A DNA stretch of 64,000 nt from Mucilaginibacter conchicola (lineage in GTDB: Bacteria > Bacteroidota > Bacteroidia > Sphingobacteriales > Sphingobacteriaceae). Position numbers and translations under genes: made by a program. The stretch spans positions 62,001-126,000 of the forward strand of contig NZ_QWDC01000001.1 in assembly GCF_003432115.1 (NCBI RefSeq), written 5' to 3'. The notes under the pieces were generated by a model that saw only the letters and a program-made list of their open reading frames with translations, searched no databases and was not told where the DNA came from. Of the stretch, positions 1,853 to 9,003 are shown piece by piece; position 1 is the stretch's first letter, and each line of letters opens with the position of its first letter.

Positions 1853-3676
1853 ATGAAAGTGATCATTGCCGAAAAGCCATCTGTGGCGCGTGATATAGCT
1901 AAGGTGTTTGGCGCAACCACCAAACGCGAGGGGTATATTGAGGGGAAGGGCTATACATTTACCTGGGCCTTTGGGCATTTGCTGCAGCTGGCTCCGCCGC
2001 AGGAGTATGGCTTTTATGGCTGGAATGTGCAGAACCTTCCCATGCTGCCATCAAAGTTTAAGCTGTCTGTCCGCAAGACAAAAACTAAAGATGGCGTGGT
2101 GGATGATCCCGCCGCGCGCAAACAACTGGATGTGATCCGAACGCTGTTTGACGAAGCAACCGAGATCATCGTGGCAACGGATGCCGGGCGCGAGGGTGAA
2201 CTCATCTTCCGGTACATCTATTATCATCTTAAATGTAAAAAGCCATTTAAAAGGCTTTGGATCTCGTCGCAAACGGATGCTGCCATTAAAGATGGTTTCC
2301 GCAACCTTAAGCCGGGGACGGATTACGATACGTTGTTCTATTCGGCACATTGCCGTTCGCAGTCGGACTGGCTGGTGGGGATGAATGCCACGCAGGCCTT
2401 GAGCCTGGCATCAGGCAACAGGGCCGTATTATCGTTGGGCAGAGTGCAAACGCCTACTTTGGCCATGATATGCGCACGGTATCTGGAGAACAAAAACTTC
2501 GTACCCGAGATCTATTACCAGGTAGCTATACAGCCCGATAAAGACGGCATCACCTTCCGCGCTATATGCGACCGCCGTTTCAAGACCAAAGAAGAGGCAG
2601 AGGTTGTTTTAAGTAAGGTCGAGGATGTGGCATCGGGTTTCCCAGATGGTGGTTTGATACTCAGGGTAGAGGCAAAACCACGCAAAGAACCACCGCCGCT
2701 GCTGCACGATCTGAGCAGCCTGCAACAGGAAGGTAACAAAAAGAAAGGTTTTACTGCCGACCAAACCCTTGCGCTGCTGCAAAACCTTTACGAAAGCAAA
2801 TTGGTAACCTATCCGCGTACCGGCAGCCGCTACATTGGCGACGATGTATTTGCAACCGTGCCCGATCTGATATCAAAATTTGAAGACCATAAAGATTTTG
2901 GTAAACAGGCGCAATTGCTGAAAGGTGCCAAACTGAGTAAGAAAAGCGTAAACGCCAAAAAGGTTACCGATCACCATGCGATATTACCTACAGGTGAAAA
3001 GCCCAACTATTTAACGCCCGATCAGCAGGCTATTTATGACATGGTTGCCGGCCGCATGCTGGAAGCCTTCCATCAGGATTGTATAAAAGAAATTACCCGC
3101 ATTGTGGTACAAAGCGGCGAGAAGTTTAACGCCAGTGGTACGGTGATCAGTACCCCCGGATGGCGTGCGGTATTCAACGATGCCGATGAGGATAAAAAGG
3201 ACGAGGAGAATGTATCCCTGCCAAAAGTGGTAAAAGATGAGCGTTTACCCATCCGCCAAAAAGCCGTTTTAGAAAAGCAAACCAAACCCAAGCCGCTCTA
3301 CAACGAGGCGAGTCTGTTAAAGGCTTTGGAAACCGCTGGTAAAGATATTGACGATGAAGAACTGCGCGAGGCTATGAAAGAAAGCGGCCTGGGCACACCA
3401 GCTACCCGTGCGGCTATCATCGAAACGTTGATCAAACGCGCATACATCAGCAGGGAAAAGAAAAATCTGGTGCCTACCACAACCGGCCTTTCGGTTTACG
3501 AAGTGGTAAAGAGCCAACGCATAGCCCAGGCAGAGCTTACTGGTTCATGGGAAAAACGCCTAGAAGAGATAAGGGGCGGGGCATCCGTTACGGCCTTCCG
3601 CGAGGAGATAAACGCCTACACCAGAGAGATCACCGGCGAGTTATTGAAAGCAGGCATTCCCCTTAAAACAAGTTGA
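1853..3676 (+). CDS. topB: DNA topoisomerase III (type IA)
   Basis: The protein has 607 residues, normal for bacterial topoisomerase III. The N-terminal Toprim domain starts with IAEKPSVARDIAKVFG and contains the metal-binding ATDAGREGELI motif. The catalytic tyrosine is Tyr320 in LVTYPRTGSRYI, and LSLGRVQTPTLAM and GLGTPATRAAIIE are further type IA signatures. It cuts one DNA strand through a 5'-phosphotyrosine and decatenates DNA. There is no C-terminal zinc ribbon of the TopA kind, which also points to TopB. Sphingobacteria often have accessory topB copies on integrative elements, but no conjugation genes are nearby, so this looks like a chromosomal copy. The element TAGTTTCG at 1836-1843 resembles a -7 box but sits very close to the ATG. 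Confidence 0.93.
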   Translation: MKVIIAEKPSVARDIAKVFGATTKREGYIEGKGYTFTWAFGHLLQLAPPQEYGFYGWNVQNLPMLPSKFKLSVRKTKTKDGVVDDPAARKQLDVIRTLFDEATEIIVATDAGREGELIFRYIYYHLKCKKPFKRLWISSQTDAAIKDGFRNLKPGTDYDTLFYSAHCRSQSDWLVGMNATQALSLASGNRAVLSLGRVQTPTLAMICARYLENKNFVPEIYYQVAIQPDKDGITFRAICDRRFKTKEEAEVVLSKVEDVASGFPDGGLILRVEAKPRKEPPPLLHDLSSLQQEGNKKKGFTADQTLALLQNLYESKLVTYPRTGSRYIGDDVFATVPDLISKFEDHKDFGKQAQLLKGAKLSKKSVNAKKVTDHHAILPTGEKPNYLTPDQQAIYDMVAGRMLEAFHQDCIKEITRIVVQSGEKFNASGTVISTPGWRAVFNDADEDKKDEENVSLPKVVKDERLPIRQKAVLEKQTKPKPLYNEASLLKALETAGKDIDDEELREAMKESGLGTPATRAAIIETLIKRAYISREKKNLVPTTTGLSVYEVVKSQRIAQAELTGSWEKRLEEIRGGASVTAFREEINAYTREITGELLKAGIPLKTS

Positions 3677-3688
3677 TGATTTAAAATA

Positions 3689-3716
3689 TTTGTAAGGCTT
3701 GCCTGTTTTTCGCGAC
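3689..3716 (+). promoter_or_regulatory. Putative ECF promoter A (TTTGTAAG-N16-CGAC) of the DUF417 gene
   Basis: TTTGTAAG at 3689-3696 and CGAC at 3713-3716 are exactly 16 bp apart, the same arrangement as upstream of the spondin lipoprotein and the ECF sigma gene. The ATG follows 20 bp after CGAC. An inverted repeat, TTTTCGCG (3707-3714) and CGCGAAAA (3721-3728), overlaps the -10 side and could be an operator or an mRNA hairpin. Confidence 0.55.
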
Positions 3717-3736
3717 TTAGCGCGAAAACACAAGTC

Positions 3737-4168
3737 ATGAATTTAAAAAAAGCAAGTTATAACCTTGGGGTTATTGCCACCATCATCGTTTTATTCTGGA
3801 TAGGCATCGTAAAATTTACGCCGAGTGAGGCCGCAGGTATCAAAGGCTATGTTTCGCATAGTTTTTTAATGAGCTGGCTGTACCATGTAGCATCAGTACA
3901 AGGTGTATCAAACATTATCGGCACCGTTGAAATTGCCACGGCCATCTTACTCATCATTTCCTTTTGGAATACTAAAATCGGCCTTATTGCCGGTTATATA
4001 AGTGCCGGTATCTTTCTTATAACACTTAGCTTTTTGTTCACCACGCCAGGTGTATGGCATTTAATGGATGGCGTACCTGTTACCGACTTTTTTGTGGTGA
4101 AGGACATGGCCTTTCTTGCCGTGGCATTGCAGGTGATAGACAAGCATCAAACATCCGCTGCAAAATAA
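3737..4168 (+). CDS. DUF417 (YkgB/RclC-like) inner-membrane protein
   Basis: This 143-residue protein has four hydrophobic helices (roughly residues 8-25, 60-78, 82-101 and 122-137). Motifs such as FWIGIVKFTPSEAAGI and the PGVWHLMDGVP loop are typical of the DUF417 family, whose E. coli member YkgB/RclC belongs to the reactive-chlorine-resistance regulon. Length matches the family. The biochemical role is not known. It has its own ECF-type promoter signature shared with the spondin lipoprotein gene and the sigma operon, which also encodes a DoxX protein of similar build. This suggests an envelope or oxidative stress function; that last step is inference. Confidence 0.8.
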   Translation: MNLKKASYNLGVIATIIVLFWIGIVKFTPSEAAGIKGYVSHSFLMSWLYHVASVQGVSNIIGTVEIATAILLIISFWNTKIGLIAGYISAGIFLITLSFLFTTPGVWHLMDGVPVTDFFVVKDMAFLAVALQVIDKHQTSAAK

Positions 4169-4180
4169 ATTCTCAAAAAG

Positions 4181-4208
4181 TTTGTAAGGGCATCCCTCAA
4201 AACCCGAC
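4181..4208 (+). promoter_or_regulatory. Putative ECF promoter B (TTTGTAAG-N16-CGAC) of the spondin lipoprotein gene
   Basis: TTTGTAAG at 4181-4188 and CGAC at 4205-4208 are separated by 16 bp, as in promoters A and C. The ATG lies 22 bp downstream of CGAC. Confidence 0.55.
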
Positions 4209-4230
4209 AGACTGTTAAAATTTCACGCAA

Positions 4231-5535
4231 ATGAATACATTCAGAATTTTAAGAGCAATATCAGCAGTTACGCTGCTGCCGTTTACACTTACCGCCTGCA
4301 AAAAGGATAATAACTATGATAATGCGCCGTCTCAGCAAACTACCATCACGGTTGAGAATGTGCTTAAATCACAGCCGCTTGTAGAATCTGGTACTTTCCA
4401 GGGCGTGGGCTCACCTGCGCTGATTTTGCCGGGGCAATCAACCACTATTACATTCTCTGCTGCAAAAGGCGAGGCCCTGTCTTTCGCTACCATGTACGGC
4501 TGGTCTAATGACCTGTTCTTCGCTCCTGAGAACCCTGGCATACAGGTTTACGATAAAAGCGGCAACCCTATTGATGGCGACGTTTCTGCCCAGGTAAAGC
4601 TATGGGATAACGGTACGCGCATCAACCAGAAACCGGGCGCTGCCGTCAGTCATCCGGGTACTGCTGATAGTAAGAACATCACCGAGGTAAAAGGTGTTGA
4701 TGCGCAGGGTAACACTTACCTTGAAGCATCTAAACTGGTTAAAGCAACGCTTAAGTACCAAGGTAACTCGGTATTTACGCTTACGCTGCAGAACACATCG
4801 GGCGGTACGGCTAATGAAACTCCGCTTAGTCCGGGTGTATGGTCGGTATCGTACATTGCCGGTGGTAATCTGCTTGCGCCAAATCCGCTTTATGAGGCTG
4901 GTAAACCAACCGCCAACGGTTTAACCAATATTGCAGAAGCAGGTGATAACTCAATGCTAAGCGCTTATGCAAAAGGCATCACCGGTATCTTCACGCCGCT
5001 CTCACCTGTGCTGGTTGTGGTTTATAACGGGATAGATAATCCTATCTACAAAACAGGTGAATTGGACATGGGGCGCGGGCTAAAAGCTTTGGCACAACAA
5101 GGTAATGCCGATACATTAGCTGCATATCTGAAAACCCAAAAAGGTGTGAAAGCTGTTTACGTACTGCCCGCTCCTGACAGCAAAGTACTGCTGCCGGTTA
5201 TTGGAAACCAAAAAGGTGGCATGGTATCGCAACAACTTAACGTAAGCAAAGGCGACCGCATAGCCATAGCAACTATGTATGGTTTTTCGAATGATTGGTT
5301 CTTTGCCTCGGCTGATAACGGTGTTGATGCTACCCAAAAAGGCGATATATCAAACAGCACAAAATTATTTGATGATGGTACGGCCATCAACCAGTTCCCG
5401 GGTGCAGGTATAACGCAATTTAACCTGGCCGGTACGCCGCTTAAAGAAAGCAAAGCTATTGCTGCGGTACCTAATCCAAATGCATTTACAACCCTGCCTG
5501 ATATTGCGGGCATTATTAAAGTAACGCTTAAATAG
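4231..5535 (+). CDS. Lipoprotein with two spondin-like domains
   Basis: This 434-residue lipoprotein has the lipobox LPFTLTAC followed by Lys-Lys-Asp. It holds two copies of a domain resembling the spondin N-terminal domain (Spond_N). The first copy has ATMYGWSNDLFFA near residue 87 and KLWDNGTRINQKPGA near 125. The second has ATMYGFSNDWFFA near 346 and KLFDDGTAINQFPGA near 378. In animals this domain belongs to matrix proteins such as F-spondin; bacterial spondin-domain proteins are secreted and of unknown function. Anchoring to the outer membrane is expected. Its ECF-type promoter puts it in the proposed stress regulon, and a strong terminator follows the stop codon. Confidence 0.82.
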   Translation: MNTFRILRAISAVTLLPFTLTACKKDNNYDNAPSQQTTITVENVLKSQPLVESGTFQGVGSPALILPGQSTTITFSAAKGEALSFATMYGWSNDLFFAPENPGIQVYDKSGNPIDGDVSAQVKLWDNGTRINQKPGAAVSHPGTADSKNITEVKGVDAQGNTYLEASKLVKATLKYQGNSVFTLTLQNTSGGTANETPLSPGVWSVSYIAGGNLLAPNPLYEAGKPTANGLTNIAEAGDNSMLSAYAKGITGIFTPLSPVLVVVYNGIDNPIYKTGELDMGRGLKALAQQGNADTLAAYLKTQKGVKAVYVLPAPDSKVLLPVIGNQKGGMVSQQLNVSKGDRIAIATMYGFSNDWFFASADNGVDATQKGDISNSTKLFDDGTAINQFPGAGITQFNLAGTPLKESKAIAAVPNPNAFTTLPDIAGIIKVTLK

Positions 5536-5546
5536 TTGTGTGTGTC

Positions 5547-5587
5547 AATTCTCTGGTGGGCGGCTTTGTGCCGCTCATCAGAGAATT
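5547..5587 (+). terminator. Rho-independent terminator after the spondin lipoprotein gene
   Basis: An 18-bp stem (5547-5564 with 5570-5587, two G-T pairs) closes a 5-nt loop and ends in a T-run. Confidence 0.85.
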
Positions 5588-5659
5588 TTTACCCTGATAA
5601 AATAAATAAAAACCTCGCTTATAGCCAGATACGTATATGCTCAAAAAAATATCATTTAT

Positions 5660-5687
5660 TTTGTAAGCTTTTGTTTTCGGTTACGAC
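5660..5687 (+). promoter_or_regulatory. Putative autoregulatory ECF promoter C (TTTGTAAG-N16-CGAC) of the sigma operon
   Basis: TTTGTAAG at 5660-5667 and CGAC at 5684-5687 are separated by 16 bp, matching promoters A and B. The ATG of the sigma gene is 48 bp downstream. ECF sigma factors commonly drive their own operon, so this is the expected place for such a site. Confidence 0.55.
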
Positions 5688-5735
5688 TAAGTGCCATAAA
5701 AAGCTCCTCTTGAGATAAAGAGCAATTATATACAC

Positions 5736-6326
5736 ATGGATGCGGAGATCATAGAACATACTACTATACATACGCTTGAGCCCCAAAAATGGGTAGAGCT
5801 GTACGCTGATTACTTGTACACTTACGCACTCAGTAGGCTTAACGATGAAGAGACTGCACGTGACCTTGTGCAGGATACGTTTTTGTCGGCGCTTGAGAAA
5901 ACATCATCCTTCAGAGGCGATAGTACCGAGCGCACCTGGCTCACGGCCATCATCAAATACAAGATCATCGATGTTTATCGCAAGCAATCGAGAGGGTTAA
6001 CGGTAAAAAAGGCCGATGCTTTTGGGGATGATGAGAACGAGTTTTTTGACGCTGATCTTAATCACTGGAAAAAAGAACACTGGCCGGCTCCCTTTGGTGT
6101 TGAGCAGCATGATCCTTTGCATAACAAAGAATTTATGAGTACGCTGCAAAGGTGCCTTACCAAACTGCCGCCGCTTTGGAACTCGGTTTTTAAAATGAAG
6201 CATATTGACGATGAGCAGACCGATGAAATTTGTAAGGAGCTGCGCATAAGTGCAGGTAACTTTTGGGTTATTATTCACAGGGCTAAAGTGAACCTTCGTT
6301 CGTGCCTGCAAAAAAACTGGATATAA
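5736..6326 (+). CDS. ECF-family RNA polymerase sigma factor
   Basis: The protein has 196 residues. Region 2 is visible in ETARDLVQDTFLSALEKTSSF with the following FRGDSTERTWLTAI, and region 4 in LPPLWNSVFKMKHIDDEQTD followed by a helix-turn-helix (ICKELRISAGNFWVIIHRAK). This is the two-domain build of extracytoplasmic-function sigma factors. The gene is followed after 1 bp by a zinc-binding anti-sigma gene and then by a DoxX gene, forming a compact operon. Its promoter shares TTTGTAAG-N16-CGAC with two nearby genes, so it probably controls itself, the DUF417 gene and the spondin lipoprotein. The trigger is unknown. Confidence 0.9.
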   Translation: MDAEIIEHTTIHTLEPQKWVELYADYLYTYALSRLNDEETARDLVQDTFLSALEKTSSFRGDSTERTWLTAIIKYKIIDVYRKQSRGLTVKKADAFGDDENEFFDADLNHWKKEHWPAPFGVEQHDPLHNKEFMSTLQRCLTKLPPLWNSVFKMKHIDDEQTDEICKELRISAGNFWVIIHRAKVNLRSCLQKNWI

Positions 6327-6327
6327 G

Positions 6328-6618
6328 ATGAAGAAGCGACTGAATACTGAGATAGAAAAAATAGCCTACAACTGCAGGCAGGCCACGCTGTTGATAGAGA
6401 AAAAGCAGGAAGTTGAACTCACCAACCGCGAGAAACTGGAGTTGAAGATCCACCTGGCCGGCTGCTATATATGCCGCGTGTATGAAGAACAAAGCGTGCT
6501 GATAAACAGCATGATGAGGACTTTATTTAAAGGTACATCAACCGATGGTATAAAGCTGGATGACAGCTACAAACAAAAGCTCAAAAAGCAAATAGAAGAT
6601 GAGCTTGATAAAAAATAA
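6328..6618 (+). CDS. Zinc-finger-type anti-sigma factor (soluble)
   Basis: The product is 96 residues, mostly helical. It contains the His-x3-Cys-x2-Cys signature of the ZAS (zinc-binding anti-sigma) fold: HLAGCYICRVYEEQ near residues 41-54. No membrane helix follows, so it would be a cytosolic anti-sigma. It begins 1 bp after the sigma stop codon and its end lies just before the DoxX ATG, so the three genes are almost certainly one transcript. In related soluble ZAS proteins, oxidation of the Cys pair or zinc loss frees the sigma factor; whether that holds here is inference. Confidence 0.78.
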   Translation: MKKRLNTEIEKIAYNCRQATLLIEKKQEVELTNREKLELKIHLAGCYICRVYEEQSVLINSMMRTLFKGTSTDGIKLDDSYKQKLKKQIEDELDKK

Positions 6619-6625
6619 TACCGCA

Positions 6626-7072
6626 ATGGAAAACAAGTTTGGCGCATGGTCGCCATTACTTTTAAGAATAATAACCGGCATTGGCTTTATTGTACATGGT
6701 TGGGCAAAAGTAGCCCGTGGCACAGCGGGTTTCGAAAAATTATTGATCCAGACAGGCATACCCATGCATCACCTCATGTCGATCATTGCGCCGTACACCG
6801 AAATATTGGGTGGCGCGGCATTGCTGGCAGGTTTGTTTACACGCCTTATTGCCGTGCCATTAATAGTAACCATGCTAACCGCAATGTTCACTGTTAATAT
6901 TAATTACGGTTTCAGCTCTATAAAAACTATAGGTTTAACGCCAAGCGGCCCTTTGTTTGGCCCGCCGGGATACGAGATCAATTTGTTGTACATAGCTGTT
7001 TTGCTGTCTCTCATCATCACAGGTGGGGGCAAGTTCTCTGCCGATCATCAGTTTAAGCTAAAGTGGCGTTAA
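6626..7072 (+). CDS. DoxX-family membrane protein
   Basis: ATG 6626 (MENKFGAWSP) is preferred to the in-frame ATG at 6599, which would overlap the anti-sigma gene and add nine residues foreign to the family. The 148-residue product has about four hydrophobic helices and the DoxX signature LLRIITGIGFIVHGWAKVAR near the N terminus, with YTEILGGAALLAGLFTR in the middle. DoxX proteins are small inner-membrane proteins; in Mycobacterium one works with superoxide dismutase and a thiosulfate sulfurtransferase in redox protection. It is the third gene of the ECF operon. Its last 20 bp overlap the 3' end of the convergent LysR gene. Confidence 0.85.
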   Translation: MENKFGAWSPLLLRIITGIGFIVHGWAKVARGTAGFEKLLIQTGIPMHHLMSIIAPYTEILGGAALLAGLFTRLIAVPLIVTMLTAMFTVNINYGFSSIKTIGLTPSGPLFGPPGYEINLLYIAVLLSLIITGGGKFSADHQFKLKWR

Positions 7073-7946
7073 CGGTCTCGCTTCGGCTTTGTATCAAATC
7101 AATAAATGCATTAAGTGCCCTTGCTGGCGCTGCGCTGCTACGCGATATCAACACAGTGCTCATAGTACCCAGTTCTTTACCAACGGGGAAAGTTTTAATG
7201 TTTTTAGCCAGATAGTAGCTTTTTATGATATCGGCAGGCAACATGCTGATACCCAAACCGGCCTCAACAAAGTTGATAACAGCCTCTATCGAGTTAACCA
7301 CAATAGGCTTGTACTGCATTACACCCTGCGCACTCAACCATGATTCCAGTCTGGCTCTAAATACACATCCCTGGTCAAATACCACTATTTTAACCAGCGG
7401 GTTACCGGTAAGCAGTTTGGCAAGCGTTTCTGTTTTGGCAGGGGCCAGGATAGTAAGTTGCTCTTCAGATATAGGCTCAGACCGTAAGCCCGCGATGCTC
7501 ACCGGCCCGGGTACAAACGCTGCATCAAGGTTATGGTCCAGCACATCTTTAATGAGTTCTGCTCGCATGGCCGATTTAAATTCCAGCTCGACACGAGGGT
7601 GCAGTTCGGCAAAGCTGTTAAGTATATCGGGCACTTTGAGCACCATGGTAGTTTCAATACAACCTATCTTTAAATGCCCGGCCAATGAATCGGCACTGTT
7701 TATCTCCGTTTTGGCTTCCTCAACCAGATGGGCTATCTGTTTTGCGTAATGCGATAATATGTCGCCTGCGGGGGTAAGTGAAACCTTGCGCGGGCTGCGT
7801 GCAAACAGCGGTGCGCCAAACTCTTCTTCAAGGCTTCTGATACGCGCGGTTACGTTTGATTGTACCGTAAACATTGCCTCTGCGGCTTTGGTAAAGCTAC
7901 TATGCGTGGCAACTGCTTCAAATATTTTAAGGTCGTTGATATTCAT
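7053..7946 (-). CDS. LysR-family transcriptional regulator
   Basis: The 297-residue protein has the classic LysR layout. An N-terminal winged helix-turn-helix spans residues 1-60 (LKIFEAVATHSSFTKAAEAM, then VTARIRSLEEEFGAPLFAR). A linker helix and a two-lobed effector domain beginning near HLKIGCIETTMVL follow. It is divergent from a secreted epoxide-hydrolase-like gene, with 91 bp between the two starts containing a perfect 12-bp inverted repeat. Standard LysR logic suggests it controls that neighbour and itself. The effector is unknown. The 3' end overlaps the convergent DoxX gene by 20 bp. Confidence 0.9.
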   Translation of the reverse strand: MNINDLKIFEAVATHSSFTKAAEAMFTVQSNVTARIRSLEEEFGAPLFARSPRKVSLTPAGDILSHYAKQIAHLVEEAKTEINSADSLAGHLKIGCIETTMVLKVPDILNSFAELHPRVELEFKSAMRAELIKDVLDHNLDAAFVPGPVSIAGLRSEPISEEQLTILAPAKTETLAKLLTGNPLVKIVVFDQGCVFRARLESWLSAQGVMQYKPIVVNSIEAVINFVEAGLGISMLPADIIKSYYLAKNIKTFPVGKELGTMSTVLISRSSAAPARALNAFIDLIQSRSETVNATLA

Positions 7947-7959
7947 AAATCATTTTTTA

Positions 7960-7997
7960 TGATTATTAAAATCAAAATTAATCGTTTTTAATAATCA
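7960..7997. promoter_or_regulatory. Candidate LysR operator: 12-bp inverted repeat
   Basis: TGATTATTAAAA (7960-7971) and TTTTAATAATCA (7986-7997) are perfect inverted repeats with a 14-bp spacer, in the middle of the divergent LysR/hydrolase gap. The dyad and its position fit a LysR-type operator. Confidence 0.55.
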
Positions 7998-8037
7998 ATT
8001 ATAGGGAATACTTTTGAATCATCAAAACAGAAAAACA

Positions 8038-9003
8038 ATGAACAAAAAAATAGTAAGCTACCTGAGTGTGTTGCTGATGACTTTTGCAGGAGCAGCAAAC
8101 GCCCAAAAAACAAAAACACCAAATACAACAAACATGAAAAATAACCAGGTTCATTTCAATTACATCAAAGCCAATGGTATAAACGTTTTTTACCGCGAAG
8201 CAGGCCCAAAAGATGCTCCGGTAATATTGCTGCTGCACGGTTATCCAACATCATCATTTATGTACAGGAACCTTATTCCTTTGCTTAGCGAAAAATACCA
8301 TGTAATAGCGCCCGATCTGCCAGGGTTTGGCTATACCGATATGCCCGCTGCCGATAAATTCAGCTATACGTTTGAGAATTTCACCAAAACCATGCAGGAC
8401 TTTATTGACCAGTTATCGCTTAAACGCTTTGCTATTTATGTGTTTGATTACGGCGCACCTACAGGCTTCAGGCTGGCACTGGCTAACCCTGAGAAGATAA
8501 CCGGTATTATCTCGCAAAATGGCAATGCTTATGATGAAGGCCTTAGCGATGGCTGGAACCCCATTCGCAAGTATTGGGAAAACCCGACTAAAGAGAATAG
8601 GGAAGCCCTGCACGAGGTAGTGACCATGAAGATAACCCGCTGGCAATACGAGCACGGTGTAGCCGATAAAACCCTGATAGCACCTGAGACTTATACTTTA
8701 GACCAACACTTTCTTGACCGCCCTGGCGCTGCGGAGATCCAACTGGATATTTTGCGCGATTACCGAACTAATGTATCGCTATATCCTAAATTTCATGAAT
8801 ACTTCAGGCAGTACAAGCCAAAGCTACTGGCGGTTTGGGGAGATAAAGATCCTTACTTTTTACCGGCTGGTGCACAGGCGTACAAAAAGGATATACCTGA
8901 CGCTAAAGTGGTTTTGTATGATACCGGCCACTTTGCTTTAGAAACACATTGCGAGGAAATAGCCGCTGAAATTATGGCGTTTATGGCAACGTTGCCTAAG
9001 TAA
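8038..9003 (+). CDS. Secreted alpha/beta hydrolase of the epoxide hydrolase/haloalkane dehalogenase type
   Basis: ATG 8038 is used (MNKKIVSYLSVLLMTFAGAA); a longer frame from a TTG at 8014 is less likely. The first ~24 residues form a signal peptide cleaved near ANAQ. The mature domain has the oxyanion motif LLLHGYPTSS, then APDLPGFGYTD. The nucleophile position reads VFDYGAPTG, with Asp instead of Ser, and the catalytic His is in YDTGHFALETH. An Asp nucleophile is the mark of epoxide hydrolases and haloalkane dehalogenases. Substrate is unknown. The divergent LysR gene probably regulates it. A strong bidirectional terminator follows. Confidence 0.83.
   Translation: MNKKIVSYLSVLLMTFAGAANAQKTKTPNTTNMKNNQVHFNYIKANGINVFYREAGPKDAPVILLLHGYPTSSFMYRNLIPLLSEKYHVIAPDLPGFGYTDMPAADKFSYTFENFTKTMQDFIDQLSLKRFAIYVFDYGAPTGFRLALANPEKITGIISQNGNAYDEGLSDGWNPIRKYWENPTKENREALHEVVTMKITRWQYEHGVADKTLIAPETYTLDQHFLDRPGAAEIQLDILRDYRTNVSLYPKFHEYFRQYKPKLLAVWGDKDPYFLPAGAQAYKKDIPDAKVVLYDTGHFALETHCEEIAAEIMAFMATLPK

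Follow-up and report, generated by a model that had tools for sequence, protein, structure and literature searches.

In Neisseria, the extracytoplasmic function (ECF) sigma factor sigma-E has an adjacent anti-sigma factor of the zinc-associated anti-sigma (ZAS) type, MseR; the system (NMB2144-NMB2145) is described as autoregulated, with a very small regulon that includes control of MsrA/B (PMC2893595). Its consensus is given as GTMAGBWTT, a spacer of 12-13, and CGTCTAAH, with a conserved A six nucleotides further on, to which the start of gonococcal msrA/B has been mapped (PMC2893595), and its regulon is reported to contain a DoxX gene (PMC7907618). The RpoE2/HrsE system of Haemophilus influenzae, with a cytoplasmic anti-sigma factor of 67 aa, responds to hypochlorous acid (HOCl) and targets MsrAB and a DoxX cluster (PMC7907618). 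We describe here a locus of Mucilaginibacter conchicola, in a stretch of 64,000 nucleotides (contig NZ_QWDC01000001.1, positions 62,001 to 126,000; hereafter the window), in which three copies of a two-block motif, TTTGTAAG-N16-CGAC, precede a gene for a DUF417 membrane protein, a gene for a spondin-domain lipoprotein and an operon of ECF sigma factor, anti-sigma factor and DoxX protein. We put at about 70% the probability that the three sites are one promoter motif recognised by the ECF sigma factor encoded beside them, and that this sigma factor is held by its anti-sigma factor until oxidants appear, the whole being a likely envelope oxidant-defence regulon. By analogy, the locus is best read as the Bacteroidota equivalent of the SigE-MseR regulon in Neisseria and the RpoE2 regulon in Haemophilus; the spondin lipoprotein and DUF417 would be additions to this kind of regulon. 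Among the open-licence papers listed, the best 20 or fewer per search, none concerned such an ECF regulon in Bacteroidota or a DUF417/spondin/DoxX combination; an earlier sequence-only reading of this DNA had called the combination undescribed, and the membership is indeed new, although the kind of regulon is known from those two systems.

Judged by its parts, the locus works like the Neisseria and Haemophilus ECF-ZAS oxidant systems. It has in common with SigE-MseR, as described, the ECF sigma factor with adjacent ZAS anti-sigma factor, the autoregulation (predicted here), the small regulon and the DoxX gene, and the -35 block, spacer, TAA and start A of the Bacteroidota logo TGTAAGGWTT-N12-CGACTAA agree with the published consensus. 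One letter of the -10 block differs (CGAC here, CGTC there); the targets here include spondin and DUF417, with no MsrA/B at the three sites themselves, and the phylum is another one. With the Haemophilus system, the locus shares a small cytoplasmic anti-sigma factor beside the sigma factor and a DoxX target. In the account available of that system, however, DoxX stands beside COG3767, UPF0276 and DUF2063 genes, none seen here, the anti-sigma factor has 67 aa rather than 96, and sigma autoregulation is weak. The sigma factor has just one genome match at E 1e-25 and is the best of 23 genome regions resembling TIGR02943; it scores 154.1 bits, under the curated cut-off of 162.2, in a comparison that covered the sigma factors of this genome. 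We do not file the locus as a member of the Neisseria/Haemophilus type, because this cut-off is missed and one -10 letter is not the same.

To the extent that sequence can show it, the regulon is real: the motif is rare, its spacing is fixed, its place is just ahead of genes, it recurs before homologous genes, and it is enriched only together with the sigma gene. The sequence-only reading had placed three exact copies with a 16-bp gap just upstream of three genes, and so they are, with CGAC ending 20, 22 and 48 bp from the ATGs of the DUF417, spondin and sigma genes, respectively. Genome-wide (5,335,313 bases, 15 contigs, 99.87% complete), the exact pattern has three matches, all inside 2 kb, and the control, the pattern read backwards, has none; without the first T, the matches are still just the three sites (control 2). 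Tolerating one mismatch gives 19 matches, the three sites and 16 others, against 35 in the control, so that matches at this level are background. Positions were also scored with a weight matrix derived from the sites of relatives described below, with 20 mononucleotide shuffles of the window as background. Outside the three sites no position in the window scores above 5, the best shuffle reaches 14.5, and the 16 additional genome matches score 9.6 at most. A larger regulon in this genome was thus rejected, the one-mismatch matches being below control and the additional ones low in score. Within the window, only exact matches are informative, since two mismatches give 7 matches against 5.6 expected; a scan for sigma-70-type promoters stayed at shuffle level (5 vs 6.6).

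Loci of relatives were selected solely by sigma-protein similarity, the best 80 of 434 matches giving 79 named loci (1,473,855 bases). These represent about 69 named genomes. But for a few from Chitinophaga, Olivibacter, Pararcticibacter and unclassified Bacteroidetes, the genomes belong to Mucilaginibacter or Pedobacter. The pattern TTTGTAAG-N16-CGAC has 82 matches there, against 0-2 at each of 17 other spacings (range 8-25), and TGTAAG-N16-CGAC has 209, against 0-3 at the same spacings. Single substitutions bring the 82 down to 0-1 when made within TGTAAG and to 0-4 within CGAC, and 199 letter-permuted patterns average 0.23 matches (maximum 3). The leading T of the 8-mer proposed in the sequence-only reading drops out of the motif, its position being T in 82, A in 60, C in 22 and G in 12 relatives' sites; the corrected motif is TTGTAAGGWTT-N12-CGACTAA. 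This is the logo of the 209 sites, with the last of its 12 freer bases a C in 118 and with A/T-rich sequence upstream (206 sites are distinct; three duplicate another site's 44 bases, L038 and L047 overlapping on one contig).

Ten bases past CGAC, inside an A-rich stretch, the logo has an A in 172/209 sites. Transcripts had been expected to start about 7 bp after CGAC; about 10 bp is more likely, considering this A-rich position and the parallel with Neisseria sigma-E, which together would place the start of the DUF417 transcript near 3726. Starts are likewise predicted near 4218 for spondin and near 5696-5698 for the sigma operon. An inverted repeat, TTTTCGCG...CGCGAAAA (window 3709-3728; hairpin z -2.2), extends over the -10 block of the DUF417 promoter and its predicted start, and is possibly tied to the end of the upstream topoisomerase gene, or an operator.

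The sites lie where promoters are expected. A same-strand open reading frame (ORF) starts within 100 bp downstream of 183/209 and within 200 bp of 192/209, the values for random positions ahead of a same-strand ORF being 24% and 37%; 28/209 lie inside an ORF of at least 100 aa, compared with 84.5% of random positions. All but one of the 79 loci (78/79) have a site at most 400 bp ahead of an ORF. Phylum-wide, the strict pattern TTGTAAGGWTT-N12-CGACTAA hits 2 of 395 genomes, both Mucilaginibacter, a count that is no measure of spread, since our genome goes unmatched, as do three of the other five sampled from the genus. A looser pattern at family level hits 93 of 301 genomes in 10 of 25 genera, whereas the control matches 17 genomes (read from the table); it misses our genome, the sites of which lack the full consensus. 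An exact match, TTTGTAAGGAATACTTATTTAAGCCGAC, and its variants recur in many genomes of the genus, distant from the sigma gene; readable as F-V-R-N-T-Y-L-S-R, this looks like a conserved coding stretch, and a source of background for the pattern.

Presence of the motif follows presence of the sigma gene, which is found in 112 of 149 Mucilaginibacter genomes. The 112 positive genomes have 249 exact sites against 120 for the control, and the 37 negative genomes 17 against 23. Among 150 listed of the 266 sites genus-wide, at least 70 lie within 3 kb of the sigma gene, and in the relatives' loci a site stands ahead of 69/81 sigma ORFs (68/79 loci). The two blocks had been taken for ECF -35 and -10 elements, with the sigma gene among its own targets. 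Because of the fixed N16, the pre-gene position, this self-targeting, the recurrence in relatives and the enrichment solely in sigma-bearing genomes, a promoter function is strongly supported by these sequence comparisons. Loci L037 and L038/L047 contain two sigma paralogues of the group about 4-13 kb apart in a locus that carries this promoter motif, which suggests cross-talk.

The target genes add support to the redox idea of the sequence-only reading, which had pointed to redox-stress members of the DUF417 and DoxX families: in relatives, promoters of the same form precede genes for Met-rich exported, peroxiredoxin, DUF1223 thioredoxin-like and MsrB proteins. Excluding six of the 209 sites, with no same-strand ORF within 400 bp, we classified 202 target ORFs by one scanned representative per cluster, or by composition for the Met-rich proteins. 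The classes are sigma (69), DUF1223 (50), Met/Lys-rich exported proteins (30), AhpC/TSA-type peroxiredoxins (15), spondin (13), DUF417 (4), DoxX (3) and others (18). The Met/Lys-rich proteins are small (median 87 aa, 14% Met, 23% Lys). Among the others are a cupin, a cytochrome b561, a YHS-like protein (29.5 bits, below the cut-off of 30.3) and, in the 79 loci, one cluster of two MsrB-like (SelR) ORFs. In the sister group, DUF1223 is the commonest target after sigma; two DUF1223 genes of our own genome (G000:C12:41972 and G000:C11:5665; L166, L167) lack the promoter.

Gene by gene, with one mismatch tolerated, a site lies 18-23 bp 5' of the ATG in 14 of the 15 distinct spondin genes (10 exact TTGTAAG-N16-CGAC, 4 with one mismatch), the start of the 15th (L092) being cut off by the contig end. 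A site was found for 6/9 DUF417 genes (at least 35% identity) and an own site for 2/7 DoxX genes, the window's included in the seven. These counts exclude duplicates of the three genes in L047, L112, L113, L114 and L118 and include L047's own DUF417 (35% identity). By this measure DoxX is the least consistent member of the putative regulon. The sequence-only reading had named it a target, which it would be by way of the sigma operon, where it directly follows the anti-sigma gene, and not by a site of its own. Spondin-type loci occupy two main parts of the sigma tree, the window's and one of Pedobacter, plus L092. Gene order and orientation vary among loci, so the shared promoter is no by-product of one copied neighbourhood.

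The signature C-x25/26-H-x3-C-x2-C of ZAS proteins (Cys-His-Cys-Cys) is present in 69/69 anti-sigma proteins. The window's protein has a maximum hydropathy of 0.75, i.e. no membrane segment, and scores 46.5 bits against the curated model NF052368, not reaching its cut-off of 50. Searched against PDB sequences, it gave no match as a single sequence and six unrelated chains as a profile. A membrane anti-sigma factor of the NrsF type, NrsF being a multi-span DUF1109 protein, is ruled out by the ZAS motif and the absence of a hydrophobic segment in these 96 aa. In the sigma factor, Cys 140, 166 and 190 are invariant over 34 aligned rows, and a redox role for them is conceivable; no relative of it was found in viral contigs.

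We propose that the neighbouring ECF sigma factor reads TTGTAAG-N16-CGAC and that the soluble anti-sigma factor, binding zinc through Cys16, His42, Cys46 and Cys49, would keep it inactive. Reactive chlorine or a similar oxidant would be sensed by oxidation of the anti-sigma thiols, and the freed sigma factor would activate its own operon with the anti-sigma factor and DoxX as well as the genes for DUF417 and the spondin lipoprotein. DUF417 and DoxX may then protect the inner membrane or the thiol pool, and the spondin lipoprotein may protect or repair the outer surface. Sigma autoregulation would form a positive loop that ends on re-reduction of the anti-sigma factor. More tentatively, at somewhat under even odds, the surface spondin lipoprotein and the membrane protein DUF417 may be a new Bacteroidota oxidant shield under an ECF sigma factor, where the promoter code GTAAG-G-W-TT-N12-CG-W-CTAA and the fixed start A would have been kept nearly letter for letter between Bacteroidota and Neisseria and the regulon contents would have been swapped.

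Table. Promoter sites, genes and terminator of the locus, in window coordinates
Feature	Position	Strand	Evidence or remark
Topoisomerase gene	1853-3676		Upstream neighbour of DUF417
ECF promoter 1, TTTGTAAG-N16-CGAC, DUF417 gene	3689..3716	+	Exact match; weight-matrix score 28.6
DUF417 protein, 143 aa, predicted inner-membrane, no Cys	3737..4168	+	PF04224 120.4 bits (cut-off 27)
ECF promoter 2, TTTGTAAG-N16-CGAC, spondin lipoprotein gene	4181..4208	+	Exact match; weight-matrix score 21.5
Spondin-domain protein, 434 aa, predicted lipoprotein, sole Cys at position 23	4231..5535	+	NF038123 211.6 bits (cut-off 40)
Predicted intrinsic terminator 3' of spondin gene	5547..5587	+	Hairpin -32.4 kcal/mol (5536-5600), z -7.26, terminal T run; absent from pattern-scan list
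ECF promoter 3, TTTGTAAG-N16-CGAC, sigma operon	5660..5687	+	Exact match; full CGACTAA; weight-matrix score 31.8
ECF sigma factor, 196 aa, regions 2 and 4	5736..6326	+	PF04542, PF08281 over cut-off; TIGR02943 154.1 bits
Soluble ZAS-type anti-sigma factor, 96 aa, Cys16-His42-Cys46-Cys49	6328..6618	+	No hydrophobic segment
DoxX/HvfX-family membrane protein, sigma operon gene 3	6629..7072	+	PF07681 67.3 bits; NF050144 85 bits (cut-off 80); alternative upstream start 6599
LysR-type gene	7053-7946	opposite	Converges on DoxX; 20-bp overlap with DoxX end

The sigma operon would be a separate transcription unit, because a strong hairpin and T run follow the spondin gene. The structure predicted for the spondin protein (pLDDT 62) was too poor for a fold match (best E 0.043); its identity across 12 relatives is 69-94%. 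DUF417 reaches a maximum 19-residue Kyte-Doolittle mean of 2.27. Comparison of the DUF417 and DoxX profiles gave no alignment (probability 0.1, small alignments), so that the clan relation between them was not confirmed.

Three further systems resemble parts of the locus. SigF/NrsF-type systems (Caulobacter, Azospira) and BcrS/AbcS of Brucella, named ECF16 in its paper, use GTAACC-N16-CGAA or nearly so, and in some species are described with Met-rich (MXKDX) proteins and methionine sulfoxide reductase, HOCl resistance having been shown in Brucella (PMC3511200, PMC8315932, PMC4623255). Two blocks with N16 are common to both; the motif letters differ (TGTAAG-N16-CGAC here, and no match to TTTGTAAG-N16-CGAA in the 79 loci), as do the soluble ZAS anti-sigma factor here and the Met-rich target, found in relatives and not at the three sites themselves. 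E. coli RclC, a DUF417 membrane protein, is needed for resistance to hypothiocyanous acid by a mechanism given as unknown, and its homologue RcrB for HOCl resistance (PMC12096828). RclC is under RclR, however, and not an ECF sigma factor, and the DUF417 protein here, at 68.7 bits, is far under the RclC equivalog cut-off of 275 (NF040476). DoxX is also a core gene of clusters for bufferins, copper-binding ribosomally synthesized and post-translationally modified peptides (RiPPs), in a paper whose main text has neither spondin nor DUF417 (PMC12452194). The DoxX protein here passes the HvfX-type model; unlike those clusters, the eight proteins scanned (1853-9003) include no MNIO (DUF692) protein or bufferin, a scan outside which small ORFs may include precursors. 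The genome's sole MNIO gene is on a different contig (C9; L170 607-4479, G000:C9:525500-531500), behind a gene for a protein of 698 aa whose C-terminal part is Cys-rich, and ahead of a further gene, with no DoxX-like ORF by eye; this is maybe a different MNIO pathway.

A redox function for the regulon is likely, the main competing signal being metals. The anti-sigma factor could lose its zinc to copper or another thiophilic metal and the targets serve metal stress, a reading suggested by the match of DoxX to a family of copper-binding RiPP maturation, by its place in the core of the copper-chelating bufferin clusters (PMC12452194), and by Caulobacter SigF, whose regulon is described as including DoxX and DUF692 and as responding to chromium and cadmium, not to agents of reactive oxygen species. 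The Met-rich and YHS-domain targets of relatives could also bind metals. We consider it unlikely: the locus has no MNIO protein or bufferin among those scanned, the genome's MNIO gene is elsewhere, and in relatives the targets, with peroxiredoxin, DUF1223 and MsrB among them, point rather to redox repair of thiols and methionine. Less likely still is a regulon for surface remodelling, with the spondin lipoprotein as main product and the redox partners incidental. Spondin is better kept in the same loci (69-94% identity) than sigma (57-93%), DUF417 and DoxX, and has the tightest promoter-ATG distance, but in the larger sister group the same promoter stands before DUF1223, Met-rich and peroxiredoxin genes and not before spondin, and five loci have a site at both a peroxiredoxin and a spondin gene.

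It is very improbable that the motif serves another regulator, such as the LysR-type protein whose gene (7053-7946) adjoins the operon, rather than the sigma factor: its two blocks are unlike each other and keep a fixed distance, it has an ECF-like CGACTAA and an A-rich predicted start, it stands just 5' of same-strand genes far above the random level, and it is enriched only where the sigma gene is present. That the three sites are chance matches, or copies recently made from one repeat, might be suspected from the control-level matches in sigma-negative genomes of the genus. The 16 bases between the blocks are not alike among the three sites, and the genome control (3 vs 0), the spacing and permutation controls in the 79 loci and the weight-matrix shuffles refute this reading.

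The ECF promoter reading describes a compact regulon that is conspicuous genome-wide: three promoters, one sigma factor and one small anti-sigma factor. It makes spondin lipoproteins and DUF417 proteins likely partners in envelope oxidant defence; the spondin literature we found, by titles among open-licence papers, concerns algal, zebrafish and human proteins. The motif lets members be listed by sequence alone; further candidates named in this way are DUF1223 and Met/Lys-rich exported proteins as well as peroxiredoxin and MsrB, and the role of RclC-like DUF417 proteins becomes testable beyond enterobacteria.

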